A DNA stretch of 52,819 nt from Halobacteriales archaeon QS_4_66_20 (GTDB taxonomy: Archaea; Halobacteriota; Halobacteria; Halobacteriales; Haloarculaceae), in assembly GCA_003021015.1 (NCBI GenBank), contig PXRK01000047.1, positions 1-52,819 of the forward strand, in the 5' to 3' direction. Under the pieces are notes generated by a model, which saw only the letters and a program-made list of their open reading frames with translations, searched no databases and was not told the DNA's origin. The translations under genes were made by a program, and so were the position numbers. Below are positions 9,437 through 52,819 of this stretch, piece after piece. Each line of letters opens with the position of its first letter. The first letter of the stretch is position 1.

Positions 9437-9703
9437 CTACTCGGGCGACCACTCGCAGGCGTCGCCGAGCGCGAGGTCCCGCTCGTCGATGTACGCCGAC
9501 AGGCAGGCAAAGTTACAGAAGTAGGTCGGCGCACCGCAGTCGGCGGTGCAGTCCCGCACGCAGATCGGATCGTGCTCGAAGATCGGCGATCCACAGTACG
9601 CGCACGATTCGTCGGTGTCGGGGGTGTCGATCGTCGTCGCCATGGCTGTCACGAGGAACGCGAGCAAGAAGACGATTGCGTTGTACTGCACCGCCTTGTT
9701 CAT
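9437..9703 (-). CDS. DUF7576-like small membrane zinc-motif protein
   Basis: An 88-residue protein with one N-terminal membrane helix (about residues 7-24) and a Cys-rich domain: CAYCGSP, then CVRDC, CGAP and CNFAC, a pattern that could bind one or two zinc ions. It matches the small haloarchaeal DUF7576 proteins by eye. The ATG at 9701-9703 abuts a MITE: the element starts in the base triplet that makes up the start codon. Any promoter must therefore lie inside the element or beyond it. An upstream in-frame start at 9835 would translate MITE sequence and is not credible. Confidence 0.7.
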   Translation of the reverse strand: MNKAVQYNAIVFLLAFLVTAMATTIDTPDTDESCAYCGSPIFEHDPICVRDCTADCGAPTYFCNFACLSAYIDERDLALGDACEWSPE

Positions 9704-9921
9704 ACTGGTGGCTGTACGTACGTGAAAACTCGAATTGAGAATCCAGGCGGAACGGGTCTGTCTCCGCAGATAGACAGCCAGACGTGATTCAGTTACGCTA
9801 TGCCGTCCCAACTCCCGTTGTTCGGGCCATGACACAGCCGATGGACTGTCCTGGCACTGGACGGAGTCACGTCTGGCTGTCTAGCAGAGACTGGCGAGTA
9901 AAAGAATTACAGCCACCAGTA
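9703..9921. mobile_element. MITE (TNA type) interrupted by a second element
   Basis: Terminal inverted repeats TACTGGTGGCTGTA / TACAGCCACCAGTA bound the element, with TCA on both sides (9700-9702 and 9922-9924). Without the insert it is nearly identical to the element at 37096-37204. It contains no open reading frame for a transposase. A second element (9773-9881) sits inside. Confidence 0.9.
9773..9881. mobile_element. Nested 109-bp MITE
   Basis: Inverted repeats of about 18 bp (GACAGCCAGACGTGATTC versus the complement of GGAGTCACGTCTGGCTGTC, one mismatch) bound this piece. TA is present on both sides (9771-9772 and 9882-9883), while the uninterrupted relative at 37 kb has a single TA at this point. 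This is direct evidence of insertion with a 2-bp duplication. Non-coding. Confidence 0.88.
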
Positions 9922-9985
9922 TCAGCGTCAGGTGGGCGTGGATCGCGTCGGTCACGTCCGCGACGGTGCCGCCGGCGCTGCGCAT
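9881..9985 (-). CDS. Possible 34-residue single-helix membrane peptide ending in MITE sequence
   Basis: From ATG 9985 a short frame encodes a hydrophilic start followed by a clear hydrophobic helix (HLTLILVAVILLLASLC). The last dozen residues and the stop lie inside the MITE at 9703-9921. It resembles other tiny haloarchaeal membrane peptides, but there is no second line of support. It may be a chance frame or a gene whose 3' end was replaced by the element. Confidence 0.28.
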   Translation of the reverse strand: MRSAGGTVADVTDAIHAHLTLILVAVILLLASLC

Positions 9986-10126
9986 CGCGACGCCGACCGC
10001 GTTCCGGCTGCGCGGTCCTGATCGCTGGCCCGACGGTCCGACAGCCGACGCCCCGGACGCCGCTGGTCGATTCGGGTTACCGCGGCGAAACCGGCCGTTT
10101 TTGCCCTGTCCGGTCGAACCACACCC

Positions 10127-10672
10127 ATGACCGACTGGCGAGCGACACTCGAACAGGAACGCGACGCGAAAGACGACTTTTTCAGCGAACACCCGCACTC
10201 GCCGATCCCTGACGACGAACGGTCGTCGTTCGAGGGGCTGCGGTACTTCGAGCCCGACCCCGACCTGCGGTTCGAACTCGGACTCGACAGCTTCGTCGCG
10301 TCGTCGACGATCACCGTCGAGACGACCCAGGACCGCAGTCAGCATTACGAACAGATCAGCGAGTTCTCGTTTACCGTCGACGGGACCGACTGCACGCTGA
10401 CCGCCTTCCAGTCCGCCGGCGAGGATGAAGAGAGCCTGTGGGTGCCGTTCCGCGACGAGACCAACGGCGAGGAGACCTACGACGCCGGCCGGTACCTCGA
10501 CCTGGGGCCCGAGGAGCGCACCGACGACGGCTGGGTGCTGGATTTCAACCGCGCGTACAACCCCTTCTGTGCGTTCTCGGACGCCTACGAGTGTCCGCTG
10601 GTGCCGACCGAGAACTGGCTCGATGTCCGCATCGAGGCCGGCGAAAAGTACCCGCCGCGTGTCGAGGAGTAG
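10127..10672 (+). CDS. DUF1684 domain-containing protein
   Basis: A 181-residue cytoplasmic protein of the DUF1684 family. The family hallmarks are visible: an N-terminal W-RATLEQERDAKDDFF segment, and the C-terminal block DFNRAYNPFCAFSDAYECPLVP followed by ENWLDV. The biochemical role of the family is not established. The ATG is preceded by a T-rich stretch about 27 bases upstream (ccgtttttgccc). The gene converges with the folate gene downstream, 30 bases between the stops. Confidence 0.88.
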   Translation: MTDWRATLEQERDAKDDFFSEHPHSPIPDDERSSFEGLRYFEPDPDLRFELGLDSFVASSTITVETTQDRSQHYEQISEFSFTVDGTDCTLTAFQSAGEDEESLWVPFRDETNGEETYDAGRYLDLGPEERTDDGWVLDFNRAYNPFCAFSDAYECPLVPTENWLDVRIEAGEKYPPRVEE

Positions 10673-10702
10673 CGGCGGTCCGACTACGGTTTTTCCCGTC
10701 GG

Positions 10703-13516: not shown

Positions 13517-13598
13517 CTACGAGCGCTGCGTCGAAGAGAATCTTCGCTGCAATGAGGACAGATCCGTCGCAAAAAAACGGAGATTCGCTACGCGATCA

Positions 13599-13707
13599 TA
13601 CTGATTGTTGTGAGTCGTTACCGCCGGGGAGTCACAATTCGTGGGGCTCAGCCCGCGAACCAACCGTTCACGTGAGGTGGTCCCGAAAATAATCACAACA
13701 ATCAGTA
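13599..13707. mobile_element. 109-bp MITE (TNA type) ending at the aconitase stop codon
   Basis: Inverted repeats TACTGATTGTTGTGA / TCACAACAATCAGTA bound the element, with TCA on both sides (13596-13598 and 13708-13710). The right TCA is, on the minus strand, the TGA stop of the aconitase gene. No coding capacity. Confidence 0.92.
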
Positions 13708-15681
13708 TCAGTCGTCGCTCGGCGCGGCGGCGCCGTCGCCCTCGTGCTGCTGGCGGACGTACGGCAGCCGGCCGCCGGCCGCCAGGATCGCGCGCTCGCG
13801 CTCGCTGGCGTCCAGCACGGCGGTCGCCTCCCAGTCGTCGTTCACGCGGACGGTGAACTCCTTCTGACCGGAGCGAACGCCGGCGTTGACGTCGTCGACG
13901 ATCTCGATGTCGTCGCCCTGGTCGATGTTCTCGTAGGTCTCCTCCTCGATGAGCAGCGGGATCAGCCCGAAATTAAAGAGGTTCGCGCGGTGGATGCGGG
14001 CGAAACTCTGTGCGAGCACGCCCTCGACGCCGAGGTGCATCGGACACATCGCCGCGTGCTCGCGGGAGGAGCCCTGGCCGTAGTTCTGGCCGGCGACGAG
14101 GAAGCCCCCGTCGGAGCGCTTTGCGCGGTCGGCAAAGGTGTCGTCGACCCGCGAGAGGGTGAACTCCGAGAGCCGCTCGATGTTCGAGCGGTACATCAGG
14201 ATCTCCTGGGTTGCGGGGATGATGTGGTCGGTCGTGATGTTGTTACCCATCTTCAACAGCGCCGGCCCCTCCAGTTCGGACTCCAGGGGGTCTTTCAGCG
14301 GCACGTCGCCGATGTTCGGCCCCTTGATGAGGTCGTCGTCGGGCGCCTCGTCGGGCGCGATGAGGTCGGCCGTCGAGGCGTCGAACTGCTCGGGCATCTC
14401 CAGGCCGGGGTCCTCGAGATCGCCCAGTTCCTCCGCCAGGTCGCGCGGGTCGACGATCTCGCCCGCGATCGCGGAGGCGGTCGCCACTTCCGGCGAACAG
14501 AGGTAGACGGCGTCGTCTTCGATGCCCGACCGGCCCTCGAAGTTGCGGTTGAACGTCCGCAGCGAGACCGAATCGGAGGCGGGCACGTGGCCGTTGCCGA
14601 TACACGCGCCGCAGGTGGCCTCCGAGAAGTTCACCCCGGCGGCCATCATCTCGGCGACCCAGCCCTCGCGGGCCAGCAGTTCCGAGGACTGCTTGGAGCC
14701 GGGGGCGACGATCATCCCGGTGGTCTGGTTGACCGTCCGCCCTTCGAGCATCTTCGCGGCCGGCAGGATGTCCTCGAAGGCGCCGTTGGTACAGGAGCCG
14801 ATGATGACCTGGTCGACCTCGATCCCTTCGACCTCGCGGACCGGAACGACGTTGTCCGGCATCGACGGCTCGGCGATCAGCGGTTCGAGCGCCGAGAGGT
14901 CGACGACGACCTCGTCGTCGTACTCCGCGTCCTCGTCGGGCTGGAGCTCGACGTACTCCTCGGCCCGCCCGAGGCGTCCGAGGTAGTCCCTTGTGTGCTC
15001 GTCGGTCGGGAAGATCGAGGTGGTCGCGCCCAGCTCGGTCCCCATGTTGGTGATCGTCGTCCGCTCGGGGACCGTCAGCGTCTCGACGCCCGGGCCTGTG
15101 TATTCGAGCACCTTGCCGACGCCGCCCTTGACGGTGAGCCGCCGGAGCAGCTCCAGGATGACGTCCTTGGCGGTCGCCCACGCGGGGAGTTCGCCCTCGA
15201 GACGGACGTTGACGATTTCGGGCATCTCCGTGTAGTAGGGTGCGCCGCCCATCGCGACTGCGATGTCGATCCCGCCGGCGCCGATGGCGAACTGGCCCAT
15301 CCCGCCCGGCGTCGGGGTGTGCGAGTCAGAGCCAAGCAGCGTCTTGCCCGGCGCGGCGAAGTGTTCCTTGTGCACCTGGTGGCAGATGCCGTTGCCCGGC
15401 CGCGAGAAGTGCGCGCCGAACGTGCCGGCAGCAGAGCGGAGGAACCGGTGGTCGTCGGTGTTCTTGAAGTCGAACTGGTACGTCTGGTGGTCGCAGTACT
15501 GGGCGGCCAGCTCGGTCTGGACTTCGTCGATCCCCATCGCCTCGAACTGCAGCCAGACCATCGTGCCCGTCGTGTCCTGCGTGAGCACCTGGTCGACCTC
15601 GAGGCCGATCTCCTCGCCGGGTTCGAGTTCGCCCTCGACGAGGTGATCCTCGAGGATTTTCTCGGTGAGTGTCTGTCCCAT
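13708..15681 (-). CDS. acnA: Aconitate hydratase
   Basis: A 657-residue aconitase (citrate to isocitrate in the citric acid cycle). The three iron-sulfur cysteines are in the SCTNG and ATCGACIGNGH motifs, the substrate-binding region reads GSDSHTPTPGG, and the swivel domain has the GQNYGQGSSREHAA block. The length matches the shorter aconitase type seen in haloarchaea. The start ATG at 15681 is chosen from the homologous MGQTLTEKIL start and a T-rich TATA-like box about 30 bases upstream. Its TGA stop is one copy of the border repeat of the adjacent MITE. Confidence 0.95.
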   Translation of the reverse strand: MGQTLTEKILEDHLVEGELEPGEEIGLEVDQVLTQDTTGTMVWLQFEAMGIDEVQTELAAQYCDHQTYQFDFKNTDDHRFLRSAAGTFGAHFSRPGNGICHQVHKEHFAAPGKTLLGSDSHTPTPGGMGQFAIGAGGIDIAVAMGGAPYYTEMPEIVNVRLEGELPAWATAKDVILELLRRLTVKGGVGKVLEYTGPGVETLTVPERTTITNMGTELGATTSIFPTDEHTRDYLGRLGRAEEYVELQPDEDAEYDDEVVVDLSALEPLIAEPSMPDNVVPVREVEGIEVDQVIIGSCTNGAFEDILPAAKMLEGRTVNQTTGMIVAPGSKQSSELLAREGWVAEMMAAGVNFSEATCGACIGNGHVPASDSVSLRTFNRNFEGRSGIEDDAVYLCSPEVATASAIAGEIVDPRDLAEELGDLEDPGLEMPEQFDASTADLIAPDEAPDDDLIKGPNIGDVPLKDPLESELEGPALLKMGNNITTDHIIPATQEILMYRSNIERLSEFTLSRVDDTFADRAKRSDGGFLVAGQNYGQGSSREHAAMCPMHLGVEGVLAQSFARIHRANLFNFGLIPLLIEEETYENIDQGDDIEIVDDVNAGVRSGQKEFTVRVNDDWEATAVLDASERERAILAAGGRLPYVRQQHEGDGAAAPSDD

Positions 15682-15830
15682 AGCGTCCCAATCTCCGCTA
15701 TCCGGAGGTAAAAAAGGTGCTGTTGCGTCAGTTACCTCGTCCACGCGGGCGGTCCCCGCCCGATCGGGGTCGTTTCGTGGGCGCTCGCCGGACCGGTAGC
15801 GTTTTGCACGCCTGCCTCCCACAGCCGGCC

Positions 15831-16301: not shown

Positions 16302-16524
16302 CACAGATATGTATTTCCCACCTGTTCAAAATATTACTACACCTTTTATCCATTTGAACATCAGAGTTATCCGTGCGGGGTGTTAACACTGCCTGCCGGT
16401 GGGGGGATACCCGGCCTGTGCCTCTGACAAGTCTCAACCGGTCTCCCCCTCCAACCGGCCTCATACTGTCGGTCTATGGGATGGCAAGATACGCAAACCG
16501 GTGTATTCACCGGGGTGGTTCTGT
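16302..16524. other. AT-rich intergenic region with an 8-bp inverted repeat
   Basis: An AT-rich patch lies after the dUTPase stop, unusual for this GC-rich window. It holds TGTTCAAA (16323-16330) and its complement TTTGAACA (16353-16360) around a TTTTAT box. It could be a promoter with an operator or a weak hairpin. No coding frame is supported. Confidence 0.45.
16464..16506. mobile_element. Short MITE derivative (43 bp)
   Basis: The left end (TACTGTCGG) and a right segment (CGCAAACCGGTGTAT) match, in opposite orientation, the elements at 18679 and 42353. TCA flanks both sides (16461-16463 and 16507-16509). It is an internally shortened, non-coding copy. Confidence 0.7.
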
Positions 16525-18585: not shown

Positions 18586-18678
18586 CGGCGCCCGCTGGGC
18601 GACTCCCTCCATGATGCGGACTGCGACGATCGGTTGTACGTGGAGAGTTCTACCCCGGAACCGTGCTGAAACGTGTGA

Positions 18679-18728
18679 ATACGCCGGTTTGCGTGTCTTG
18701 CCAGTCCACAGAGTCACGTCCGAGACTA
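18679..18728. mobile_element. Short MITE derivative
   Basis: Carries CGGTTTGCGTGTCTTGCC and AGAGTCACGTCCG, shared with the element at 42353-42404 and, in reverse, with 16464-16506. TGA precedes it (18676-18678). The right border is degraded. Confidence 0.65.
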
Positions 18729-19166: not shown

Positions 19167-19167
19167 T

Positions 19168-19238
19168 CGCGGCGGACGGGCCCTGGCAATCATTCGCGGC
19201 GGACGGGCCCTGGCAATCATTCGCGGCGGACGAGCTCT
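19168..19238. repeat. 27-bp tandem repeat, about 2.6 copies
   Basis: The unit CGCGGCGGACGGGCCCTGGC + AATCATT occurs perfectly at 19168-19194 and 19195-19221, followed by a diverged partial third copy to 19238. It starts right after the hsp20 stop. No coding frame. It may act at the 3' end of the transcript. Confidence 0.85.
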
Positions 19239-19346
19239 GTTGATTACTTCCGGCAGACGGGACCGCGAGGCGCTATAAGAACTGAAAACCAGGCAGAAGC
19301 ATTGAAGTGCGGCCAGCAGTCAGTACTCATCGGGAACCACGCCGTG

Positions 19347-24919: not shown

Positions 24920-24945
24920 CTGTTCCCGCGAGATTGCCAGCGTCT
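24920..24945 (+). repeat. Second copy of the aspS 3' end
   Basis: CTGTTCCCGCGAGA is identical to the last codons of aspS at 24783-24796, followed by 8 of 12 matching bases; the block reads LFPRDCQRL. Between the copies are two GC-rich hairpins (around 24876-24895 and 24900-24917). It looks like a remnant of a duplication or of an insertion at the end of aspS. Confidence 0.7.
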
Positions 24946-24947
24946 GA

Positions 24948-24990
24948 CACTGATTGTTGTGAGTATTTTCGGTACCACATCGCAATCAGT
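24948..24990. mobile_element. Short MITE derivative
   Basis: The left end CACTGATTGTTGTGA and the right end CAATCAGTA are inverted copies of the TNA-type termini, with only about 20 bases between them. TGA precedes it (24945-24947). It is internally deleted relative to the 109-bp copies. Confidence 0.7.
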
Positions 24991-29019: not shown

Positions 29020-29122
29020 TACACCTGGACGGGATTCGCTGGCGATCTACGACGGTACTACGAGGAGTCCCGGCCGGCCACCGAGTTGGACGGATTTCCC
29101 GACAGAGTCACGTCCGACAGTA
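29020..29122. mobile_element. Diverged MITE ending at the PurO stop codon
   Basis: The right end AGAGTCACGTCCGACAGTA is followed by TCA (29123-29125), which is the TGA stop of purO on the minus strand. The left end (TACACCTGGACGGGATTC) is an imperfect inverted copy and its border repeat is degraded. Confidence 0.7.
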
Positions 29123-29752
29123 TCACTCCCCGTTCACGACAGCTGTTTCGAACCCGCCGTCGGCGACCGCGACGCCGGCAGCACAGACCCGGTGTTCGTA
29201 CTCGTGGTCGTACAGTTCGCGGGCCGCGCCGGCGGCGTCGGCCGCGTCGAGATCGAACGGTTCGGGCGCGTCGCGCTCGTAGGTGGCCACCAGCGTCGGT
29301 TCCTCGACTGCCTCCACCACGAGGGCGTCGCGACGGACTGTCCCGACGACGGCGCCAGGTTCGTCCCCCACGGTCGGATCGTCGGAGTCGTTTCCGACAG
29401 TCGGGTCGTCTGTAACGCCGACGACGCCGGCGATGCGGGGGGTGTCGTAGTCGTCTTTCTCGAAGTCGAGCGCGAGTAGCGGTTCGGCGATGGCGTCCCG
29501 CGCCGGGTAGCCCAGCGCGAGCTTTTCGGCGATGGGATCGACGTGCGAGCCGTTGCCGATCACTGCACCGCGGTCGGTCAGCCGCAGGCAGTTGTAGCCG
29601 ATGTAGGGGTTGTCAGTCTCGGGCGCGTCCGGCGTCGGGCCGACCGTCACCGCCCCATCGCGTTCGGTTGTCTGCCTGTTCGGGAACGACCGCGAGGAGA
29701 CACGGTAGGCGCCGACCCGGGGGCCGGCGACGAGAACACGTCCAACGTACAT
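29123..29752 (-). CDS. purO: IMP cyclohydrolase, archaeal PurO type
   Basis: A 209-residue enzyme for the last step of de novo purine synthesis (FAICAR to IMP), in the form used by archaea instead of the bifunctional PurH. The N-terminus [10 protein letters not shown] and the motif [13 protein letters not shown] are diagnostic, and [11 protein letters not shown] near residue 49 also fits. A haloarchaeal acidic insert with a DDPTVG-type repeat lies around residues 115-130. The TGA stop coincides with the border triplet of the MITE. Confidence 0.9.
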
Positions 29753-31530: not shown

Positions 31531-31558
31531 ATCGCGGGCCGCGCACAGAACGGCATCA

Positions 31559-31667
31559 TACGGTCGTTCGTGATTCGTTACCGCTACGGTGTCACAGTTC
31601 GTGGGTCACAGCCCGGCAAACGCCCGATATGACGAGGCAATCCCGAAAATAATCACAACAATCACTA
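31559..31667. mobile_element. 109-bp MITE ending at the MFS stop codon
   Basis: TCA on both sides (31556-31558 and 31668-31670). The left end TACGGTCGTTCGTGA and the right end TCACAACAATCACTA are from two subtypes, so it looks like a hybrid of the elements at 39645 and 13599. The right TCA is the TGA stop of the MFS gene. Confidence 0.9.
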
Positions 31668-32939
31668 TCAGTCGGCCAGCACGGCGCGGCGTTTCGGCGT
31701 CGCCACCTCCTCGACCTGCGTCAGCACGAGGAGGGCACCGGCGGCGGCGAGCGTCGCCCCGAGCACGAACGGGACGGCGAAGCCGAACGCGACCAGAAAG
31801 CCCGACAGCAGCGGGCCGACGGCGACGCCGAACCCGAACGCCATCGTCAGGATCGACAGCGTGGACCCGGACTGCCCCTCCGAAGCGATGTCGCCGGCCA
31901 GCGCCAGCGCCGGGGCGAACACCATCGCGCCGGCGACGCCCTGTGCGAACCGGGCGAGAAACATCAGCCACGGGTCGAGGATGAACCCCTGGGCGAGCGT
32001 CGTCGGGATCAGCAGCACGGTTCCGGCCACGATGAACGCCTTCCGGCCGTAGAAGTCCGTCGCCCGACCGATCGGCGCCTGGAGGAGGATCTGTGCGAGC
32101 ACGAACGCGGCGAACTGCAGCCCGAACATCTGCGGACCCTGGTCGAGGCGGGCGTTGACGATCTCCCCGAGCGTGGCAAAGAGGGCGATGCCGACGGCCA
32201 TGAAAAAGGAGACGACCCCGAGCGTGAACACCGGGTCCAGCAGGTGCCGGCCCGACCGGTCAAAGACGGCGAACTCCGTGTCGTCGGCGGCGTCGGTCGG
32301 CGTGATGTCGGGATCGCGGATCAGCACGAGGATGAGGACGAAGCTGAGCGTCGCCGTGAGCGTCGCGAGGTAGAAGGCGGCGTCGAACCCCGTGAGCGTG
32401 AGGGCGAGGCCGGCGACCGCGAGGTCGTAGGGGCCGGCATCGACGACGACGCCGGCGGCGATCGGGCCGGCGCCGAAGCCGATCAGCCGGAACGTGTTGT
32501 AGGTGCCCATGTTGCCGCCGCGGTTGCCCTCGGCCGCCAGGTCGTTGACCAGCGCGACCGTCGTCGGGATGATGAACGCGCCGGCGATCCCCTGGAGCGT
32601 CCGGAGCGCCAGCAGGTGCCAGTAGGCCGTCGCCAGCGTGTAGGCGAAACTCGCGGCGCCGAGGATGCTCAGCCCGATCAGGACGAAGATCTTCCGCCGG
32701 CCAGTCCGGTCCGAGAGCCGGCCCGTGAACGGCTGCAGCGGGCTGTTGACGAAGCCGAACAGCGAGAGGACGACGCCGGTGAGCGCCACCTCGGTCAGGC
32801 CGAACGTCGACCCGGCGACGAAGTCGCTGGCGATGAACAGCGGCAGCACGACGATCAGAAACGAGTTGCCGACTGACTCCGCCATCCGGGCCAGCGCCAG
32901 CGCGAGTACCTGTGGATCGACTCCCAGCGGGTTCCTCAT
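31668..32939 (-). CDS. MFS transporter, 12-helix drug/metabolite type
   Basis: A 423-residue major-facilitator protein with twelve predicted helices. The loop 2-3 signature GRLSDRTGRRKIFV (about residues 72-85) and its counterpart in the second half, GRATDFYGRKAFIV, are clear. The helix 5 motif (GFGAGPIAAG) resembles the drug-efflux subgroup. The substrate is not predictable. ATG 32939 is chosen because the first helix follows; upstream codons are not typical. The TGA stop is a border triplet of the adjacent MITE. Confidence 0.88.
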   Translation of the reverse strand: MRNPLGVDPQVLALALARMAESVGNSFLIVVLPLFIASDFVAGSTFGLTEVALTGVVLSLFGFVNSPLQPFTGRLSDRTGRRKIFVLIGLSILGAASFAYTLATAYWHLLALRTLQGIAGAFIIPTTVALVNDLAAEGNRGGNMGTYNTFRLIGFGAGPIAAGVVVDAGPYDLAVAGLALTLTGFDAAFYLATLTATLSFVLILVLIRDPDITPTDAADDTEFAVFDRSGRHLLDPVFTLGVVSFFMAVGIALFATLGEIVNARLDQGPQMFGLQFAAFVLAQILLQAPIGRATDFYGRKAFIVAGTVLLIPTTLAQGFILDPWLMFLARFAQGVAGAMVFAPALALAGDIASEGQSGSTLSILTMAFGFGVAVGPLLSGFLVAFGFAVPFVLGATLAAAGALLVLTQVEEVATPKRRAVLAD

Positions 32940-35307: not shown

Positions 35308-35328
35308 CAGAAACCGAAACCGGCGTCA

Positions 35329-35517
35329 TACTGCCGGACGTGATTCCGTTCCCACCCGGATAGCGCTCAGCAGCTGAGACAACCGAAACCCCAGTCTGAT
35401 AGTGATTATTGTGACTGTGTACCGGGTCGACCGCACGCAGTCGCACGGTCGATCCCGGAACGACTCACAATAATCCTATGAGCATCACTCGAAGTAACAG
35501 AGTCACGTCCGGCAGTA
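35329..35517. mobile_element. MITE with a nested MITE, ending at the mfnA stop codon
   Basis: Inverted ends TACTGCCGGACGTGA / TCACGTCCGGCAGTA, with TCA on both sides (35326-35328 and 35518-35520). The right TCA is the TGA stop of mfnA. Without the nested piece at 35400-35478 and one TGA it is 107 bp, near the 109-bp norm. Confidence 0.9.
35400..35478. mobile_element. Nested 79-bp palindromic MITE
   Basis: The ends TAGTGATTATTGTGA / TCACAATAATCCTA are flanked by TGA on both sides (35397-35399 and 35479-35481). The interior is itself a near palindrome around a CGACCGCACGCAGTCG core. It belongs with the element at 49546-49625. Confidence 0.88.
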
Positions 35518-36501
35518 TCAGTACCAGTCCAGATCGGCGACGAACGAGCGGAGCATCGAGCGGGTGACGTGGGGCATGCAGACGATGCGGAGTTCGCCCG
35601 ACCCGGTCTTGGAGACGCGCCAGCCCCGGTCGCGGAGTTCGTCGGTCATCGGCACCGAGAGGTCGGCGGTCACGAGCGGGAGTTCGGGGCCGAACACGTC
35701 GTGGCCGCGGCTGGCCAGGGCGTCCGCGACGGCGCTGGCGACGCCGGCGCCGCTGCGGGTGCCCGTGAGCGTGATCTGTGCGGTCGACTCCAGGTACGGC
35801 GTGTCCACGGCAAGGTCGTCGAACAGCGACTCCGAGCGCGCGAGCAGGCCGCCCGCAGGCACGGCCGCGCGGCCGGCCTTGTGCGGGTCGATCGTCAGCG
35901 TGTCGACGTCGGCGTGGCCGAAGTGCCAGTCGTGGTCGGTGAACGGCAGGTAGAACCCGCCCCAGGCGGCGTCGACGTGGCACAGCGCGCCGGCGTCAGT
36001 CGCCAGCTCCGAAAGCGCCGGGATCGGGTCCACGACGCCGTACTCCGTCGACCCCGCGACGCCGACCACCGCGACGGTGTCGTCGTCGATCAGTTCCGCC
36101 ACGGCGTCGGCATCGGCGCGGTGGTCGACCGTCGGGGCCGTCCGCAGTTCCACACCCAGCAGTTCGGCCGCCTTCCGGAAGCTGAAGTGGGCGCTCGTCG
36201 GCGCGACGACGTTCGGCTCGTCGGTGTCGGCGCGGTTGCGGGCGATCCGCACGGCCTGGATGTTCGACTCGGTGCCGCCGCTGGAGACGTACCCCGCCGG
36301 CTCTGACAGGCCCGCGATAGCCCCGAGCTTCTCGACGGCCTCCGCCTCCAACCCGGCGACCGCCTCGTAGGTGCCCGGGTCGCCGGGGTTCGTGGCGAGG
36401 AACCGCTCGGCCGCCTCGCGTGCCCGCGGGTGCGGCTCGGTGCACATCGACGTGAGAACCCGATCGAAATCCTGCGGCTCGGCCCACTGCGCCTGCTGCA
36501 T
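35518..36501 (-). CDS. mfnA: L-tyrosine/L-aspartate decarboxylase (MfnA)
   Basis: A 327-residue PLP enzyme. The PLP lysine is in [16 protein letters not shown], and the cofactor region [12 protein letters not shown] (about residues 70-81) and [13 protein letters not shown] are typical of group II decarboxylases. Archaeal MfnA makes tyramine in methanogens; in haloarchaea the likely product is beta-alanine from aspartate for coenzyme A. The start at ATG 36501 matches the family N-terminus ([14 protein letters not shown]). A TATA-like gattaaccg lies about 25 bases upstream. The stop coincides with the MITE border triplet. Confidence 0.9.
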
Positions 36502-36737: not shown

Positions 36738-37095
36738 GACACTGGAACGTGAGAGTCCGACAATGGAAGCTGAAACGGCGTTAAATCGGCTGGCGTTCAA
36801 GCGAGGGGGTAAGATATTCTCCGCGCTGAGCACCCGACACAGGCGGGTGACGCTGCTGTTGCTCCACCGGGACGGGGTCAAACGCGAGTCCGACCTGCTC
36901 GTTCGCGAGAGTACCGAGGACGACGTCGAACACGATCTCATCGCCAACCACCTGCCGGAACTGGAGAAGGCAGGGTTCATCGAGTGGGACAGAGAGACGG
37001 GGACGATCTCGAAAGGGCCGCGGTTCGACGAGATCGAGCCGGTACTGGAGCTGATCGAGAACCACCCCGACGAACTGCCGCCGGGCTGGCCCTGA
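36736..37095 (+). CDS. HTH transcriptional regulator, DUF7344-like
   Basis: A 119-residue winged-helix protein: [16 protein letters not shown] starts the domain (about residues 29-44), then a charged helix and the wing ([23 protein letters not shown]). This pattern is typical of the small haloarchaeal regulators with ArsR-like folds. A second ATG at 36763 ([10 protein letters not shown]) avoids overlap with the divergent frame and may be the true start. The TGA stop (37093-37095) is the left copy of the TGA duplication of the MITE downstream. Confidence 0.8.
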
Positions 37096-37204
37096 TACTG
37101 GTGACTGTACGTACGTGAAAACTCGAATTGAGAATCCAGGCGGAAAAGGGTCTGTCTCCGCAGATAGCAGAGACTGACGAGTGAAAGAATTACAGCCACC
37201 AGTA
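37096..37204. mobile_element. 109-bp MITE inserted at the regulator's stop codon
   Basis: Ends TACTGGTGACTGTA / TACAGCCACCAGTA, with TGA on both sides (37093-37095 and 37205-37207). The left TGA is the stop codon of the HTH gene. It is the uninterrupted relative of the element at 9703-9921, which proves the borders of the nested insertion there. Confidence 0.93.
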
Positions 37205-37271
37205 TGAGCCCGGCGGCGTGCCGTCGGGTCAGGCGGGGAGCTTTTACTCCAGTGCCACGAACGGCGCACCG

Positions 37272-39638: not shown

Positions 39639-39644
39639 CGGTCA

Positions 39645-39753
39645 TACGGTCGTGCGTGACTCGGTACCGCTCTGGAGTCGCGCGTTGCGCGTTGCAGCCC
39701 GTGCACCCACCGATACTGGGTCCCAGCGCCGAAAATACTCGCGCACGACCGTA
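39645..39753. mobile_element. 109-bp MITE ending at the DHH gene stop codon
   Basis: Ends TACGGTCGTGCG / CGCACGACCGTA. Border triplets are TCA (39642-39644) and TTA (39754-39756); the latter is the TAA stop of the DHH gene. One triplet has probably mutated. Confidence 0.85.
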
Positions 39754-41673
39754 TTAGTGCTCGTCCGGCAGCGCTGTCGAACTGCCGAGCGCCTCGTCGA
39801 TCTCGGCGTCGGCCATTTTCTCGACGAGTGCGTCGATGACGGCCTCGCGCATCCCCTCGACGAACTTGATCGAGCCGACGACCAGGTGGCCGCCGCCGCT
39901 GACACCGCCGCCGGGCACCTCCGACTGGAGTTCGGCGACCATCTCGGGGATGTCCAGGCGGACGCCGTCCGAGCGCAGGACGGCGAAGTCCGGCCCGTAG
40001 CCGATGGTGATCACCGGATCGCCCGTCTCCTCGACTTTCCGGTCGTGGATCTTGCCGGTCGTTTTGCCGGGCGCGGGGTAGGTGAACCGCTTGGCGTGGT
40101 TCTCGACGTCGATCCGGTAGAGGTGCGCGCCGTTGTCGAGGTCCTCGTGGGTGACGTGCTGCATCGCCGCGTCGAGCTGGTGGTCGACGTCGCGTTCGGC
40201 GCGCTCGGCGAGCAGGTCGACCAGTTCCTCGTGGCGCCCCCGGTCATCGCAGTTGACGTACAGCAGGTCGTTGACCAGCTCGCGGCCGGCGTTGTACTTG
40301 AGCCAGTAGGTCGCGTAGTCCAGCGCCTCGCCGATGTCGAGCAGGCGCGCCTCGTCGTAGCCTGCCTCGCTCGCGAGGTCCAGGTACTGCCCCATCGCTT
40401 CACCCTCGGAGCGGTCCGACAGCCCCGCCACAGCGGGGACGTGGGACAGCTCGTCGGTGAGCGACGGGTCGATCATCCGGGCGACCTCGACGCACATCAT
40501 CCCGGTCGTGATCCGGTAGTCCTCCCCGTGCAGGTACGGGTTGACGTGCTGTTCGACGAGCCCCTCGACGGCCTCGGGGTCCGGGTGGTGGTGGTCGACC
40601 ACGAGGATCGGCACGTCGTAGTGGGCGAGGTTCCGGTAGGCCGGCGTGTCCTCCTCGGTGCTGCCGTTGTCGAGCATCAGAAAGAGGGGGAGCTTCTGGC
40701 CGTGGCGTTTGCGGTTCTCCAGGGCGAAGTTCAGGTCGCGGGTGACGTCCTCGAGTTCGTAGAACGGCGCCTTGCTCGGCAGCCGCTTCAGCAGGTGCCG
40801 AGGGGCGTCGGGGTCCTCCCAGGTCTCGGCGATGAACCGTTCCAGCGCGTACTGGAGCGGCACGCTCGCACACAGCCCGTCGCCGTCAGCGTGGTGGCGA
40901 ATCCGGATCGGCCGCCCCTCGAGGACAGTCTCGCGGAGCCGCCGGGCGACGTCCGTCAGGTCGTCCCGCAGCGTCTCGAACGCCGGCCAGTCGACCAGCG
41001 GGTCGACCGCCGCCGGTTCGACCGTCTCCGCGCGGGCCTCCCGAAGCCGGTCGTCGACGCGTTCGCGGGCCTGGCCGGCGAGGACGCGGAGGTCGTCGAC
41101 CTCGATCTGGTGGTGGTCGTTGCGGGACTCGACGGTGCCGGTGACCCGGACCACGTCGTCGAGGACCACTTCGCCGTAGGCCCGGACGCCCGCCTCCTCG
41201 AACGCCGCGGCCGGGAGCACGCCGCTCCCGGTGCGGATCTGGAAGATTGTCGGGCCGCCGGTCTGCTTGATCTGGACGACGTTCCCCTCGACGTGTGCCG
41301 TCTCGCCGGCGTGGTCGGCGAGGTCGGCCGCGTCGACGCGGGGGCCGTGCCCAACCGACGCCGTCTGGTACTCGGTGAGCTGTACTTCGGTAAAACTCAT
41401 GTCGCCGTCCTCGCGGACCTCCGCGAGTTCGACAACGAGGTCGTCACCGACGCCGTAGCTGTCGACCAGATTCGAGACGTGAACGAGCCCCGATACTGAC
41501 TCGGAGAGGTCGACGAACACGCCGTACTCGACGACGCCGTTCACCGTCGCGAGGTAGCGTTCGCCGGTTTCGATGTCGTCAAGCGTGCACTGCGGATCGA
41601 GGTCGTAGACTGTCGAATCGGAATCAGCCGCGAGGTCGGTACCGTCGTCCCCGGTACCGTTGGGTGTAGACAT
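39754..41673 (-). CDS. S1-OB-DHH phosphoesterase (archaeal RecJ/GAN-like)
   Basis: A 639-residue protein. An S1 RNA-binding domain (about residues 35-95, GVVEYGVFVDLSESVSGLVHVS) and an OB-fold (about 112-185) precede a DHH core with HHADGDGLCA and VVDHHHPDP, and a DHHA1 end with GGGVSGGGHLV. Archaeal members of this group act as 5'-3' exonucleases or associate with the replisome (GAN) or with RNA decay. The stop TAA is a border triplet of the MITE. The gene is divergent from ribL. Confidence 0.88.
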   Translation of the reverse strand: MSTPNGTGDDGTDLAADSDSTVYDLDPQCTLDDIETGERYLATVNGVVEYGVFVDLSESVSGLVHVSNLVDSYGVGDDLVVELAEVREDGDMSFTEVQLTEYQTASVGHGPRVDAADLADHAGETAHVEGNVVQIKQTGGPTIFQIRTGSGVLPAAAFEEAGVRAYGEVVLDDVVRVTGTVESRNDHHQIEVDDLRVLAGQARERVDDRLREARAETVEPAAVDPLVDWPAFETLRDDLTDVARRLRETVLEGRPIRIRHHADGDGLCASVPLQYALERFIAETWEDPDAPRHLLKRLPSKAPFYELEDVTRDLNFALENRKRHGQKLPLFLMLDNGSTEEDTPAYRNLAHYDVPILVVDHHHPDPEAVEGLVEQHVNPYLHGEDYRITTGMMCVEVARMIDPSLTDELSHVPAVAGLSDRSEGEAMGQYLDLASEAGYDEARLLDIGEALDYATYWLKYNAGRELVNDLLYVNCDDRGRHEELVDLLAERAERDVDHQLDAAMQHVTHEDLDNGAHLYRIDVENHAKRFTYPAPGKTTGKIHDRKVEETGDPVITIGYGPDFAVLRSDGVRLDIPEMVAELQSEVPGGGVSGGGHLVVGSIKFVEGMREAVIDALVEKMADAEIDEALGSSTALPDEH

Positions 41674-42352: not shown

Positions 42353-42404
42353 ATACACCGGTTTGCGTGTCTTGCCGTTCCACAGAGTCACGTCCGGCTG
42401 TATA
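42353..42404. mobile_element. Short MITE between convergent genes, ending at the LOV kinase stop
   Basis: The right end AGAGTCACGTCCGGCTGTATA is followed by TCA (42405-42407), the TGA stop of the kinase. The left end (ATACACCGG after TGA at 42350-42352) is a degenerate inverted copy. Related to 18679-18728 and 16464-16506. Confidence 0.7.
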
Positions 42405-43886
42405 TCAATCCGCGCGGTGCCGAGGGACGGTGAGCGTGAGTTCGATGCCGCGGGGCTCCGCATCCTCGACTGTGAACTCCCCGCCGACGCCCCTGACGAC
42501 CCAGTAGATGAACCAGAGACCGAGCCGGTCGGCGTGGTTCAGCGGCGTCTCGCCAGTCTCCAGCACGTCGAGTTCCTGCTCCGGGATGCCAGGGCCGTTG
42601 TCCTCGATCTCGACGGAGATCCAGTCCGCCGACTGGCCGGCGATCCGGATCTTCACGACCGGTTCGGGCGTATCGTTGTGCTTGATCGCGTTCTCGACGG
42701 CTTCCTCGATCGCGGCCATGAACCGCGGGACAACAACCCGGCAGGGGTCGTCCTCCGGCACAGTCAGGCGGAACGTGGCGTCGGGGAACCGGTCCCTGAA
42801 GGCGCCGACGAGCTGTTCCAGCCCGTCGGTCAGATCAGTCGGCTCGGCCGGCGCCGGTCCGGAGAGCGCCGTGTCAACGTCTCTGACAGTGTCCGCGAGG
42901 CCCACCAGGTCCGTCGCGGTCGACTCGATGGCGTCGAGTGACTCGGGGCGGTCACCGTCGTACTCGTCCTGAAGCAGTTCGGTGTGGCCCTCGATCACGT
43001 TCATCTTGTTCCGGAGGTTGTGGTTGAGCACCCGGTTCAGGACCTCCAGCCGGCGCTCCCTGATCTTCCGGTCGGTGATGTCGGTCTGCAAGCCGACAAA
43101 GTACGTGACCGCCCCCGTGTCGTCGCGGAGCGGCGTGATGTCGAGCTTGTTCCAGAACGACGCCCCCTCCTTCCGGTAGTTCAGGATGTCGACCGAGACC
43201 GGCCGCCCGTCGTCGACGGCCTCACGGATCTGCGCCCGCGTGTCGGGGTCGGTCCCCTCGCCCTGGAGGAACCGGCAGTTCTCGCCGATCACGTCCTCGT
43301 ACCCGGTGAGGCGCTCGAACTGCTCGTTGCAGTAGATCAGCGGGTTGTCCTCCCGGCTGGGGTCGGTGATCGTGATGCCGACCGTGGCTTCGTCCATCGC
43401 CCGTTCTTTCAGTTTCAGGTCCTCGACCGTCTGTTCGAGCTGTGCCTCCCGCTCAGCAAGCCGTACGGCAGTCTGGCGCCGCTCGACCAGGTTCCCGATC
43501 CGCGACAGGAGCGCCGCCTTCTTCACCGGAAGTTCGATCACGTCGTCGACGTACTCCCTGGCTTCCGCGGTCGCCGTCTCGGGGGCATCCTCGCCGACGA
43601 GCAACACGAACGGCAGGAAGACGGGGTTCGAGGTGTCCCGCCGCGGCTGGAGGGTGCCCGCGACCCTGTTGAACTGCTCGAGGTCGAACACGCAGCAGTC
43701 GAACTCCGAGTTCAGCGTCTCCACGTCTGTCGTCGTCTCGACCTGGTACCGCTCGCCGAGCGTCTCGACCAGCAACTCGCGGTTCCGCCCCGCCTCCATG
43801 AACAGCAGCACCCGTGGGTCGTCGGGGGTACCCTCGCCGCCCCCGGGACGGTCGTCCGACCCGGCAGGCCCCGAATCCGATGACAC
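42405..43886 (-). CDS. LOV-domain sensor histidine kinase with N-terminal receiver-like domain
   Basis: A 493-residue cytoplasmic kinase. Residues 24-135 form a receiver-like domain. Residues 165-272 match a complete LOV photosensor: the photoactive Cys in GENCRFLQG (Cys204), with the flavin-contact residues Asn236, Asn246 and Gln267 all kept. A HisKA-like helix with phospho-His 289 (NHNLRN) and an HATPase domain (N-box near 398, DNGPGIP at 429-435) follow. It should bind FMN and respond to blue light. The start is GTG. It diverges from the KaiC-like gene with a 78-bp shared promoter region. The stop is a MITE border triplet. Confidence 0.9.
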   Translation of the reverse strand: MSSDSGPAGSDDRPGGGEGTPDDPRVLLFMEAGRNRELLVETLGERYQVETTTDVETLNSEFDCCVFDLEQFNRVAGTLQPRRDTSNPVFLPFVLLVGEDAPETATAEAREYVDDVIELPVKKAALLSRIGNLVERRQTAVRLAEREAQLEQTVEDLKLKERAMDEATVGITITDPSREDNPLIYCNEQFERLTGYEDVIGENCRFLQGEGTDPDTRAQIREAVDDGRPVSVDILNYRKEGASFWNKLDITPLRDDTGAVTYFVGLQTDITDRKIRERRLEVLNRVLNHNLRNKMNVIEGHTELLQDEYDGDRPESLDAIESTATDLVGLADTVRDVDTALSGPAPAEPTDLTDGLEQLVGAFRDRFPDATFRLTVPEDDPCRVVVPRFMAAIEEAVENAIKHNDTPEPVVKIRIAGQSADWISVEIEDNGPGIPEQELDVLETGETPLNHADRLGLWFIYWVVRGVGGEFTVEDAEPRGIELTLTVPRHRAD

Positions 43887-49472: not shown

Positions 49473-49545
49473 CGGACTCGCTTCCGACTTGGGCGTCTCG
49501 GCACATAGGCCCGTTGGTCCATTCCGGGGACCGGGAATTCGCTCA

Positions 49546-49625
49546 TAGTGATTATTGTGAGTCGTTCCGGGATCGACCGCGGTACTGCGTGCGGTCGACC
49601 CGGTAAACAGTCACAATAATCACTA
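49546..49625. mobile_element. 80-bp palindromic MITE ending at a stop codon
   Basis: Ends TAGTGATTATTGTGA / TCACAATAATCACTA, with TCA on both sides (49543-49545 and 49626-49628). The interior (CCGGGATCGACCGC ... GCGGTCGACCCGG) is also self-complementary, so the whole element can fold back. The right TCA is the TGA stop of the gene at 49626. Confidence 0.92.
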
Positions 49626-50597
49626 TCACTCCTGCATCTGTGTTCCCGTACTAAAGCTAGTGAGATCGTCGATACGCTCTTCGAGAGTTTCGATTTCCCG
49701 GCGTAGTTCGTCGGACTCCGCGTCGTCACTGGCCGCGAGTCGATCTTTGAGTCCCTGGAGGCGCGACTCCTTGGCGTCTTCATCGACTTCTGCCTTCCTG
49801 ACGTACTCGCTTTCCGAGATCTCGTAGACGTCCGACTCAGCCAACTCCGTCACCTCCAGTGCCTCGGCTACTTTACGAGAGTCGACACTCATGACCCGGT
49901 CACGGTCGATACCGACCTCTTCCAGCATGGTCAACACTTCCTCCTCATCCCTGAGCGACCGGTTGCGACGCGACGTTCGCTGAACAGACCCGTACTGGCC
50001 GTGGACGGGCTGGTCGTGATGAAGCCTGTTGAGCAGTACCTCGGTGATATCTTGGCGAAGTTCGTTCGCGTTCCGCTGGACGTCCGAACAGAGCGTGTAT
50101 ATGTTCACCAGCGCATCTGTTTCCAGCACCGTGAGATCAGACATTTCGTGATGCTCTAGGGCGTCGATAAGGAGCAAGGCGTCGGAGTACACGTCGATTC
50201 CATCGGGTTCGATACGTTCATTCTCGCTGGCATCCGATTCGTCCCTCACCAGTTGCGTATCAGTCACATTTTCTTTTTCAGCTATGACTCCACGTTCTTC
50301 GTCGATCTCAAAACGAGGATGCAGACTCAGTACCGCCGGGTACGGATCGGCATCGACTGGAAGCCGGTCGAGTTCGAACTCGTTGTTCGAGTCCTGAATC
50401 CGCCGGTAGAGCGTCTCGAACTGCTCGCGCTGAAGCGGTCGTCGCTCTCCACTGTCGGGGAACGTGATAATGACGCGATGTTCTTGCACGTCCGCGATGC
50501 GGAACTGATCGTGAGAGAGCGGCGTGATGAGTTCGGCACCGTCGGACAACTCGTCGAGTTCGTCGAGTAGCGTGTGCCAACTGGCGCTGAACGGCAT
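49626..50597 (-). CDS. Conserved hypothetical protein with C-terminal coiled coil
   Basis: A 323-residue acidic protein. The first half (about residues 5-100) looks like a folded alpha/beta domain (LLDELDELSDGAELITPLSHDQFRIADVQEHRVII, read in two parts). The second half is helical and highly charged and ends in a coiled coil (about 265-315). I do not recognise a family with known function. ATG 50597 is preferred over a longer GTG/ATG frame to 50687 because the folded region starts there. Codon use is less GC-biased than in neighbours (more A/T third positions), which suggests recent acquisition. Confidence 0.7.
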   Translation of the reverse strand: MPFSASWHTLLDELDELSDGAELITPLSHDQFRIADVQEHRVIITFPDSGERRPLQREQFETLYRRIQDSNNEFELDRLPVDADPYPAVLSLHPRFEIDEERGVIAEKENVTDTQLVRDESDASENERIEPDGIDVYSDALLLIDALEHHEMSDLTVLETDALVNIYTLCSDVQRNANELRQDITEVLLNRLHHDQPVHGQYGSVQRTSRRNRSLRDEEEVLTMLEEVGIDRDRVMSVDSRKVAEALEVTELAESDVYEISESEYVRKAEVDEDAKESRLQGLKDRLAASDDAESDELRREIETLEERIDDLTSFSTGTQMQE

Positions 50598-50819
50598 ACC
50601 GAACCGTAGCGCGTGCCCGGATAAAACAGTCCGGTCGTGACCGACCGTTTTTGTATCAGCAGACTGGATGGAAAGTATGATCGACACTGAGTCTCTTCCC
50701 GACCGGCCGTTGACCGAGGGCGAGTTCGAGGATTTTGTCGAGACACGAGGTTGCGAACCATCACCGAACGAACAGTCGTCCTCTGCGTTCGAGGCAGTGA
50801 ACCCGAGGAACTCGGCGAA

Positions 50820-51110: not shown

Positions 51111-51836
51111 ATGACAGAGCTGCTGTATCTCCCGGACGACGACCGGACGACGCAGTTCTCCGCGACGGTTGCGGAGGCGACCGACGAGTATCTCGTCCTC
51201 GACGGGACGTACTTCTACCCGGAGGGCGGCGGGCAGCCGGCGGACCGGGGCGTCATCGAGTGGGAGGGCGGCCGTGCGACCATCGGCGACGTCCGGAAGG
51301 ACCATGGCGACGTCCACCACCTGATCGAGTCGCTAGACGGCCAGCTTCCGGCGGCCGGCGATGCAGTCGAGGCGGAGATCGACGCCGAGCGACGGCAACG
51401 TCTCACCCGGATGCACACCGCTCAGCACGTCGTTTCACGCGTCGTCCTCGACGAGTACGGCACGACCACCGCCGGCAACCAGGTGTACCCCGACCGATCC
51501 CGGATCGACTTCGAGCCGGCGTCGTTCGACGAGGCCGACCTGCGCCGGATCGAGGAGCTGTCGAACGAGGCCATCGAGCAGGACCTCCGTGTGACAAAGG
51601 AGAACCGGCCACGGGACGCCGTCGAGCGCGAGGTCGACGAGGGACGGGCCCTGCTCGATCTGATCCCGGACTCGGTCGATCCCCTCAGGGTGGTCGAGAT
51701 CGAGGGGTTCGACATGTGTCCCTGCGGCGGCACGCACGTGAACAGCCTCGGCAAGGTCGGCCGGGTCCGGATCACCGACTGCTCCTCAAAGGGCGACCAG
51801 GTACAGCGAATCGAGTTCGAACTCTCGGAGCCGTGA
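51111..51836 (+). CDS. alaX: Alanyl-tRNA editing protein AlaX
   Basis: A 241-residue free-standing editing domain that hydrolyses mischarged Ser- or Gly-tRNA(Ala). The zinc ligands are in HTAQHV (HxxxH, about residues 103-108) and in CPCGGTHV (CxxxH, about 203-210). The GGGQPADRG segment near the start (about 39-47) is the N-terminal glycine-rich motif of the long AlaX type. ATG 51111 is chosen because the frame upstream runs antisense through rps17e. Confidence 0.92.
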
Positions 51837-51862
51837 TCCTCGGGCAGTGCCCCCGCTATTCA

Positions 51863-52017
51863 TACTGACGGACGAAAATCCGCCGGATTTTCGCCCGCCA
51901 GTATTGAACGGGTGATTCCGCGTTGTTCGGGCCGCTCGTCACCGGACTGGCGTCCGGTTCCTCACGCCCCTCTGCCTCTATCAGTTGCCCGGACAATAGT
52001 TCACGTACGGCTGTATA
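51863..52017. mobile_element. 155-bp MITE-like element ending at the regulator's stop codon
   Basis: TCA on both sides (51860-51862 and 52018-52020), with left end TACTGACGGACG and right end CGTACGGCTGTATA, weakly inverted. The left 42 bases form a strong hairpin (ACGGACGAAAATCC / GGATTTTCGCCCG) that could also terminate alaX transcripts. Confidence 0.65.
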
Positions 52018-52608
52018 TCAGGCGCCCTCGCTCAACTCCTCGTACTGCTGGACGAAGTTGTCCCGACAGGAGGGACAGCAGAAGTGATAGGTGGTGCCGT
52101 CGAGGGTCTCCCGGGTCCCCTCGGCGGTGACGGAGTTGCCACACTCGACACACTCCAGGTCGAGTTCCGCCTGGCCGATGTTGGGCTGCCAGGCGGTGTC
52201 CGCGAGCAGCCCCACGTTGTAGTCGCTGACGAGATCTAGCGGGAGTGCCTCGGACAGCAGTTCGCCGACCTTGCCCTCGCCGGCGAACGCCGTACAGACG
52301 AGTCTGTCGTCGGCCGTCCGGAACACGTGGTCGACGAAATCCCGGGGAACGAGCTGTTCCTGAACATGCGTGCTCGATCCCGGCTCACAGTCGACAGTGA
52401 CGATGATCGGTTGACCCTCCTGCAGCAGCCGACGGTCGAGGTCGACTGTGAACCGGCGGAGCAGCCCCAGTTCCCGGAGGCGCTCGACGCGATCCGAGAC
52501 CGCCGGCGCCGAAAGCTCTACTTCGGACGCGATCTCGCGGTAGGGACGCCTGCCGTCCTCGAGCAAGAGCCTGAGTATCTCCCTGTCGGTGTCGTCGAGT
52601 CCGCGCAT
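52018..52608 (-). CDS. AsnC-type regulator with C-terminal TRASH metal-binding domain
   Basis: A 196-residue regulator. An AsnC-like HTH (about residues 4-52: DTDREILRLLLEDGRRPYREIA) is followed by an alpha/beta middle part and a TRASH domain with CVECGNS and FCCPSCRDNF (four Cys, about 153-185). In haloarchaea this type controls copper export ATPases and chaperones. No copper ATPase is inside the window; it may lie just beyond, or the protein may act on the cassette at 45.5-49.5 kb. The TGA stop is a MITE border triplet. Confidence 0.88.
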   Translation of the reverse strand: MRGLDDTDREILRLLLEDGRRPYREIASEVELSAPAVSDRVERLRELGLLRRFTVDLDRRLLQEGQPIIVTVDCEPGSSTHVQEQLVPRDFVDHVFRTADDRLVCTAFAGEGKVGELLSEALPLDLVSDYNVGLLADTAWQPNIGQAELDLECVECGNSVTAEGTRETLDGTTYHFCCPSCRDNFVQQYEELSEGA

Positions 52609-52721
52609 GAGGGAAGTATCGCGCGTCGATCAAAAGCAAGTTTCGACGGAGCGCAGGCGGCTTCGGATATACACCCGGACGTTATTTGCCTCAGTCATCT
52701 CGACACAACTCGGGACTGTCA

Positions 52722-52819
52722 TAGTGATTGTTGTGATTATTTTCGGAGTCGCATCGCATTCTCGGGAGTTTCACGGGCTGACACCGGAGTCTGATGGGTC
52801 GACAGCGGTAACGACTCAC
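52722..52819. mobile_element. MITE cut by the window end
   Basis: The left end TAGTGATTGTTGTGA after TCA (52719-52721) continues to the last base, which ends in CGACTCAC. The next bases should read AACAATCACTA, and a 109-bp copy would end at 52830. Confidence 0.75.

Follow-up and report, generated by a model that had tools for sequence, protein, structure and literature searches.

Short transposable elements with three-base TNA target duplications in a haloarchaeon, one family of which prefers gene stop codons

Transposons that reach high copy numbers usually survive by avoiding genes. In eukaryotes, miniature inverted-repeat transposable elements (MITEs) of the Tourist-like / PIF-Harbinger type are short and make 3-bp duplications of the form T-W-A (W being A or T). 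Prokaryotic MITEs, in the sections of a review that deal with them (PMC10969869), are short, non-coding, high-copy elements with terminal inverted repeats and a target duplication, which lie between genes and form nested clusters; the words "stop codon" are absent from the main text of that review. Among the haloarchaea, excerpts of the account of Haloquadratum walsbyi (PMC3119063) describe SMR-A and SMR-B as many-copied small mobile repeats, ~110 or 80 bp long, that have prominent inverted repeats and no known related transposon and that insert into other mobile elements. These two groups are the closest known systems to the elements described here, which lie in contig PXRK01000047.1 (C47; 52,819 nt, the whole stretch being called the window) of the 2.89 Mb draft genome of Halobacteriales archaeon QS_4_66_20 (GCA_003021015.1), a haloarchaeon of a group that we take to be Halovenus or very close to it. 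One family of these elements, family A, prefers stop codons, and roughly half of its excess in the window's genome is accounted for by a nine-base target motif. A keyword search of the openly available literature found no report of transposons settling on stop codons.

With two mismatches allowed, the family-A end is matched 378 times genome-wide against 1 match of the control, the family-C/D end 362 times against 4, and the family-B end 135 times against 0. At exactly 115 bp there are 77 family-A elements, with a further 37 at 86 bp (control, 0). The usual lengths are 115 bp for A and D, 114 bp for B and C and 86 bp for the short form of A; shorter C and D forms start at 50 bp, and the superfamily as a whole ranges from roughly 50 to 130 bp. 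Being short, transposase-free, bounded by terminal inverted repeats and present in many copies, these are probably non-autonomous DNA transposons of the MITE type. They fall into at least four families (A, B, C and D), whose common terminus, TA..G....., directly follows the TNA triplet. A de novo search of stretches of the window's genome for 16-bp inverted repeats bordered by TNA repeats gave 99 pairs, 97 of them in clusters with the reference ends that start with TA; the stretches searched had mostly been picked for family A, so the 99 pairs are not an unbiased sample.

The triplets at the borders are target duplications, as an initial annotation of the window had proposed. We collected 93 family-A copies from stretches around the listed 115-bp matches, from all 37 of the 86-bp matches and from a few further copies inside these stretches. 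The triplets are TCA on both sides in 45 copies, TGA in 40 and TAA in 1, giving identical direct triplets in 86/93; of the seven unequal pairs, one would fit an inverted repeat. C or G also stands in the middle of both triplets in 86/93 copies, one of which is unequal. Identical left and right triplets were also found in 54/57 copies of families B, C and D and in 45/47 family-A copies of a relative (G002) that we take to be Halovenus salina. Empty sites in relatives carry a single triplet. Thirteen empty-site alignments were made, six between loci, five against an uninterrupted copy of the repeat that had been entered (e.g., L020, an A copy nested in a second A copy) and two that were too poor. 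Where the metagenome-assembled genome (MAG) SW_7_65_23 has a family-B copy (L190), the window's genome has one TCA, with flanks 98% identical; where the MAG SW_10_66_29 has a family-D copy inserted at the bordering TCA of a family-A copy (L118), the window's genome has the A copy without D. Conversely, SW_7_65_23 lacks the A copies of L066 and L081 (82% and 77% identity, with small gaps; L066 has TAA for TGA there). At a family-B copy of SW_10 (L117) the window's genome reads CGA, not TGA, and the comparison of a G006 family-B copy with its site in the window's genome found the junction bases missing from the latter. Insertions into other MITEs of the superfamily were seen, and two neighboring A copies (C2:85579-85776) have a single TCA in common. 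On the evidence of the duplications and the empty sites, the transposase would make a staggered cut of 3 bp at T-N-A, in nearly all cases T-S-A (S being C or G).

Family-A insertions also share sequence outside the triplet, with G at -3, W at -2 and C at -1 mirrored on the other side. The frequencies (C ~0.7 at -1, G ~0.66 at +1 and G ~0.57 at -3) are alike at stop and non-stop sites, and the H. salina copies have the same motif, with C at -1 reaching 0.93. As such, family A is shown to recognize a 9-bp palindrome, GWC-TSA-GWC, in two species. In a conditional choice model of family-A insertion, each match at -1 or +1 contributes ~2.7 log-odds. Families B and C/D also have C at -1 and G at +1, with G at -3 being weaker or replaced by T. 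About 60% of the motif weight in the genome falls in coding sequence, yet called coding sequence holds only 4/74 A copies.

An insertion at a stop codon leaves the stop in place. In a test that is independent of any null model, an unbroken coding frame reaches the border of a family-A copy in 38 cases among 89 elements, and an in-frame TGA or TAA stands at 36 of the 38, which bears out the initial annotation's claim that the duplication keeps the stop. The same holds for H. salina, with an in-frame TGA at 25/29 frame-reached borders (47 copies), and for B/C/D, with an in-frame stop at 13/16 (57 copies). The common family-A terminus, as read from its sequence, also puts an in-frame TAG-TGA after the gene's own stop; in one orthologue in SW_10, the TGA has mutated to CGA and the gene terminates at TAG, the element's first codon. 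Frame-breaking copies are rare, and called coding sequences hold 4/74 A copies, 4/53 B/C/D copies and 4/44 H. salina copies.

Comparison of orthologues provides several examples of such sites before or without insertion. The aconitase stop is occupied by an A copy in the window's genome, in G006 (L295) and in SW_10 (L153), whereas the aconitase gene of G018, 95% identical, stops at this codon with TAA, the site being empty. G016 has a D-like end after the TGA of this same codon, a right-hand end not being seen, which suggests a second, independent insertion; a distant G016 aconitase copy (54%) also stops at the same codon. Further empty relatives with the stop at the same position are L066/SW_7 (TAA), L081/SW_7 (TGA), L011/L274 (TAA) and mfnA in H. 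salina (TGA). Two loci first scored as empty are in fact occupied, one by a damaged A end (L118) and one beside a mutated TGA (L131). The genes occupied in the two species differ: the 39 genes with occupied stops in the window's genome have no clear orthologue in the gene-side flanks around the 47 H. salina copies, the three matches being weak (at most 46%).

A stop codon forms the border in 39 of the 91 A copies that could be oriented. To score these positions, the 93 copies were reduced by 2 that could not be oriented, 4 with short flanks, 13 with near-identical flanks and 4 in called coding sequence, leaving 70, or 66 in the versions that also required equal triplets; for B/C/D, equality, flank and duplicate filters took 57 copies to 53 and the removal of 4 in coding sequence to 49, and for H. 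salina, 44 of 47 passed and 40 remained once 4 in coding sequence were removed. Under equal choice among the TSA sites of the same gaps, 18.5 of the 70 A copies would be expected at stops, and 34 were observed; in H. salina, 23/40 were observed against 13.7 expected. The claim that these elements sit on stops more often than TNA sites would allow is thus borne out for family A in two genomes. It does not extend to TNA elements in general, given that B/C/D have 12/49 copies at stops against 13.4 expected, or 14.2 with the family-A motif (Fisher test of A against B/C/D, p 0.012).

Part of the family-A excess follows from the motif. With a motif learned from the non-stop A copies only, 27.9 stops were expected against the 34 observed (P 0.0026), and with nested and adjacent copies left out, 25.7 against 30/53 (P 0.02). 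An alternative version of the analysis gave 34 at stops against 17.8 under uniform choice and 25.5 under the motif, a 13-position matrix gave 32/66 against 16.2 and 24.8, and H. salina, scored with motif weights taken from the window's genome, gave 17.3 expected (P 0.0009). As such, the 9-bp motif covers 48-61% of the stop excess of family A in the window's genome. A model with motif terms nevertheless keeps a stop coefficient of 1.46 +- 0.49 for the family-A copies of this genome, of 2.88 +- 0.76 for those of H. salina and of 1.79 +- 0.37 (likelihood ratio [LR] 19.7) for both pooled; for B/C/D the coefficient is -0.27 +- 0.58. The preference beyond the motif is clear in H. salina and is not secure in the window's genome, and it may reflect a wider target signal.

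Taken together, we think it likely that these elements are a MITE-like superfamily with TNA duplication, within which family A has a specific 9-bp target and rebuilds the stop, loses most of its copies in coding sequence and has an additional preference for stops. When the TSA is the TGA of a gene, the duplication rebuilds the stop on the gene side and leaves the protein unchanged. Copies of family A inside coding sequence would mostly be lost; the depletion is observed, and purifying selection would account for it. This selective loss, along with the extra preference specific to family A, would leave the 43-58% of scored A copies that are found on stops (39/91, 34/70 and 23/40). We tentatively propose that the family-A transposase reads GWC-TSA-GWC along with a further feature of stops, such as wider sequence, DNA structure or the ending of transcription or translation, and that the duplicated TGA with the TAG-TGA behind it makes a safe-harbor element. 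If this targeting is true, the family could fill stop codons genome-wide without harm to genes. Family A often occupies the last three bases of genes because the duplication re-creates the stop and the element's own end adds spare stops, a testable, sequence-encoded route to a safe harbor. Many genes of one haloarchaeal genus may accordingly have a 112-nt hairpin straight after the stop, which bears on the evolution of 3' untranslated regions and on annotation.

Several observations weigh against this explanation. Gene calls came from a home-made codon-usage model instead of a standard gene finder, and only some of all copies were scored. Masking the other MITEs lowers the stop coefficient in the window's genome to 1.01 +- 0.50 (LR 3.75); adding GC content brings it to 0.79 or 0.91 (LR 2.0 or 2.8), and a term for nearness to a stop to 1.37 (LR 5.75). 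The motif alone under-predicts the stop insertions of family A in every version (34 against 25.5 or 27.9; 32/66 against 24.8; 23 against 17.3 in H. salina), so the mechanism lacks one component. Unoccupied TGA stops are barely better motif matches than intergenic TGA (mean motif weight 143 against 120, with 58 in coding sequence), so the sequence context of stops is not a sufficient cause. Empty relatives other than those named above end 1-5 codons away from the insertion point, including all 5 relatives of the DHH gene of the window. Finally, searches of PF01609, PF13359 and end pairs in selected stretches revealed no autonomous element or transposase for these ends.

Of the alternatives, the one that survives best is that the nine-base target alone produces the stop bias, with the residual being an artifact of a crude motif, of the gene calls or of other MITEs. 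The motif learned from non-stop insertions does lift the expectation from 18.5 to 27.9 of the 34, and once other MITEs are masked and GC is included, the window's genome shows no significant residual. Under these same controls, the H. salina residual remains strong (coefficient ~3, LR ~18), as does the pooled one (LR 17-22), and the same pipeline gives B/C/D no stop effect, B/C/D being a control in the window's genome and not in H. salina. We accordingly hold this alternative to be possible, though doubtful.

It is unlikely, in our view, that the pattern is one of survivorship, with insertion at any TNA and selection weeding out the non-stop copies without any targeting. Insertions in coding sequence are indeed rare in each of the three sets of copies, and a TGA stop is by construction a TNA site that survives insertion. 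Against this, A copies at stops reach nearly twice the rate of TSA sites within the same gaps, and they are also present in divergent gaps, which hold 15 of the 36 non-stop A copies and thus do not exclude the family. B/C/D live in the same genome, with similar size and the same duplication, and show no stop excess, which disfavors survivorship alone; this contrast, a natural experiment, helps in telling targeting and survivorship apart.

As for the mover, the initial annotation suggested an element of the IS5-family IS1031 group as the transposase supplier, and we find descent from such an element improbable. According to the portion of PMC12016507 that deals with it, the IS1031 group makes 3-bp TNA duplications, in agreement with such an origin, and the published end of ISLrh, an element of that group, begins GAACCTGTC. 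The ends here start with TA, unlike that single published end, which starts with GA (a comparison by eye). The transposase search covered two families, PF01609 and PF13359. No DDE_Tnp_4 (PF13359) gene was found in 18 genomes of the genus; DDE_Tnp_1 (PF01609) matches are present in 13 of the 18, and none of the 29 DDE_Tnp_1 loci examined, a part of the matches listed, has a transposase between these ends. The single DDE_Tnp_1 gene of the window's genome likewise lacks them. The 25 end pairs lying 420-3500 bp apart in the loci examined looked like neighboring MITEs, the intervals not having been gene-checked singly. In H. salina we examined 19 stretches around ends lacking a partner at the exact spacing and one around a pair 513 bp apart; the 19 contained short pairs in three cases (114, 225 and 115 bp) and no long pair. 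The 513-bp pair, considered as an insertion sequence, was rejected, being a 115-bp A copy that carries a different insertion: at L275 (G002:C1:1957900-1960300), positions 953-1465 are a 115-bp A copy with an unrelated insert of ~400 bp, ends near GTTCAGATAAG. With neither the IS1031 ends nor the transposase searches offering support, the elements are filed as MITE-like, with the parent not found.

The initial annotation also expected the elements to add a hairpin terminator. The hairpin is real, with mean folding energies of -44 and -48 kcal/mol (up to 12 copies each) and z scores of -4.7 and -8.9 against shuffles that preserved mononucleotide content only, the folding being strong because the elements are near-palindromic. 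A terminator role is unsupported, with orientation at stops balanced (13:13 for the 115-bp form and 8:5 for the 86-bp form) and a gene-strand run of at least five T in 1/39 elements at stops. Runs of five T in the 80 nt after the elements number 3/39, against 1/44 for other genes of the window. Among non-stop 115-bp copies the orientation is uneven, at 21:7, in a count that includes duplicated composites. That these are domesticated 3'-end elements, kept at stops because the hairpin ends or protects transcripts, would agree with the strong folding and with the 17/23 scored A insertions in convergent gaps that are at a stop, but is highly improbable given the unbiased orientation, the scarce T-runs, the lack of a stop bias in B/C/D and the different genes occupied in H. 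salina.

To follow the spread of family A, 19 other genomes were searched, 16 of the same genus and 3 of other genera. At least one match to the ends was found in 13 of the 19, with high counts in G018, G016, G013 and G002, and none in G007, G014, G017 or the three genomes of other genera. Among the matches listed, the family is also present in the MAGs SW_7_65_23 and SW_10_66_29. The inner part of the end is mostly TTGTGA in the window's genome and, among the matches listed, mostly TTGCGA/TTGCGG in G013, G004 and H. salina, with the spacing of ~115 bp kept; such lineage-specific inner ends hint at co-evolution with the transposase of each lineage. A plasmid search gave one nearly full family-A match, in H. 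salina NZ_CP112975.1 at 15231-15349 (G002 15235-15349), and a 31-base match in Natribaculum luteum with no annotated transposase within 3 kb; plasmid searches with the D, B and C queries produced no useful match. Matching stretches in viral contigs (23, 1 and 1 for C, D and B ends) and single matches in Bacteria, among the matches listed for genome contigs, were judged to be chance.

In the window itself, seven elements have two recognizable ends and the same TSA triplet on either side, and several solitary ends are also present (Table 1). Nine elements flanked by perfect T-C/G-A repeats had been claimed; beyond these seven, an eighth (39642-39756) has unequal triplets. Likewise, of the nine stop codons claimed as borders, six (13708, 31668, 35518, 37095, 39754 and 49626) do border two-ended elements and three do not: the purO stop adjoins a solitary C-type end, and the stops of the PAS kinase (42405) and TRASH (52018) genes have a C-like end nearby with two extra bases, TA, in between. 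Gene identities are from Pfam, the DHH match being slightly under the Pfam cut-off and gene 49626 having no match.

Table 1. Elements and element ends in the window, with neighboring stop codons
Feature	Position	Strand	Remark
Solitary family-A end (TGA + TAGTGATTGTTGTGA)	8309..8326	+	Partner not seen
Family-B element, TCA duplication, hosting the nested element below	9700..9924	.	Away from stop
Nested C2-type element in family B, ends GACAGCCAGACGTGA	9773..9881	.	TA repeated on both sides
Family-A 115-bp element, TCA duplication	13596..13710	.	13708-13710 = aconitase TGA stop (gene 13708-15822, -)
Truncated family-A element, single clear end (TGA CACTGATTGTTGTGA)	24945..24981	+	
Solitary family-C end	29108..29125	-	TCA 29123-29125 = purO stop (IMP cyclohydrolase, 29123-29752, -)
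Chimeric element, TCA duplication	31556..31670	.	At stop of MFS gene (31668-33062, -)
Family-C element, TCA duplication	35326..35520	.	At stop of mfnA-like decarboxylase gene (35518-36534, -)
86-bp-type family-A element inside the family-C element, TGA duplication	35397..35481	.	Right end one base short
Family-B element, TGA duplication	37093..37207	.	37093-37095 = stop of + strand DUF7344 (HTH) gene
Family-D element, TCA left / TTA right	39642..39756	.	39754-39756 = TAA stop of DHH/OB-fold gene (39754-41673, -)
Solitary C-like end, then TA, then TCA	42388..42407	-	TCA = stop of PAS histidine kinase gene (42405-43886, -)
Family-A 86-bp element, TCA duplication	49543..49628	.	At stop of gene 49626-50687 (-)
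Solitary C-like end, then TA, then TCA	52001..52020	-	TCA = stop of AsnC/TRASH regulator gene (52018-52608, -)
Family-A element truncated by contig end, TCA at left	52719..52819	+	

Some of these elements are composite. The family-B copy at 37093 is the uninterrupted form of the sequence that the C2-type element at 9773-9881 splits, and this C2-type element appears to duplicate TA only, not TNA. The chimeric element has a left end of family D and a right end of family A, so its ends are not close inverted repeats; its TCA duplication is perfect nonetheless. A 38-bp sequence (GTGAATAC.CCGGTTTGCGTGTCTTGCC) is present three times, at 16473-16510, 18675-18712 and 42349-42386, with at least two of the copies adjoining C-like ends, and is perhaps the interior of a longer C subfamily. 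Apart from these elements, the window has a 300-bp direct repeat of 83% identity (17152-17451 and 17563-17862) and tandem 27-bp units 5' of a long gene (19154-19261).

Compared with the known systems, the elements share with the described prokaryotic MITEs all of the features listed at the outset, and differ from the types covered in those sections of the review (PMC10969869) in having a 9-bp palindromic target, exact stop-codon positions and a parent transposon that was not found. The IS1031 group, as far as it is described in that portion of PMC12016507, makes the same 3-bp TNA duplication and has different terminal bases. The middle base of the triplet is mostly C or G here, in contrast to Tourist-like / PIF-Harbinger elements, and the genus genomes searched have no DDE_Tnp_4 gene. 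SMR-A and SMR-B are alike in their haloarchaeal host, size, inverted repeats, copy number and entry into other mobile elements, a comparison made by description and not by sequence; a related transposon, not known for the SMRs, was not found here within the limited search described above. In the excerpts concerned (PMC3119063), they are reported without target duplication and SMR-A favors IS605-type elements and PATEs, whereas the elements here have a TNA duplication (86/93 and 54/57) and family A favors stop codons.

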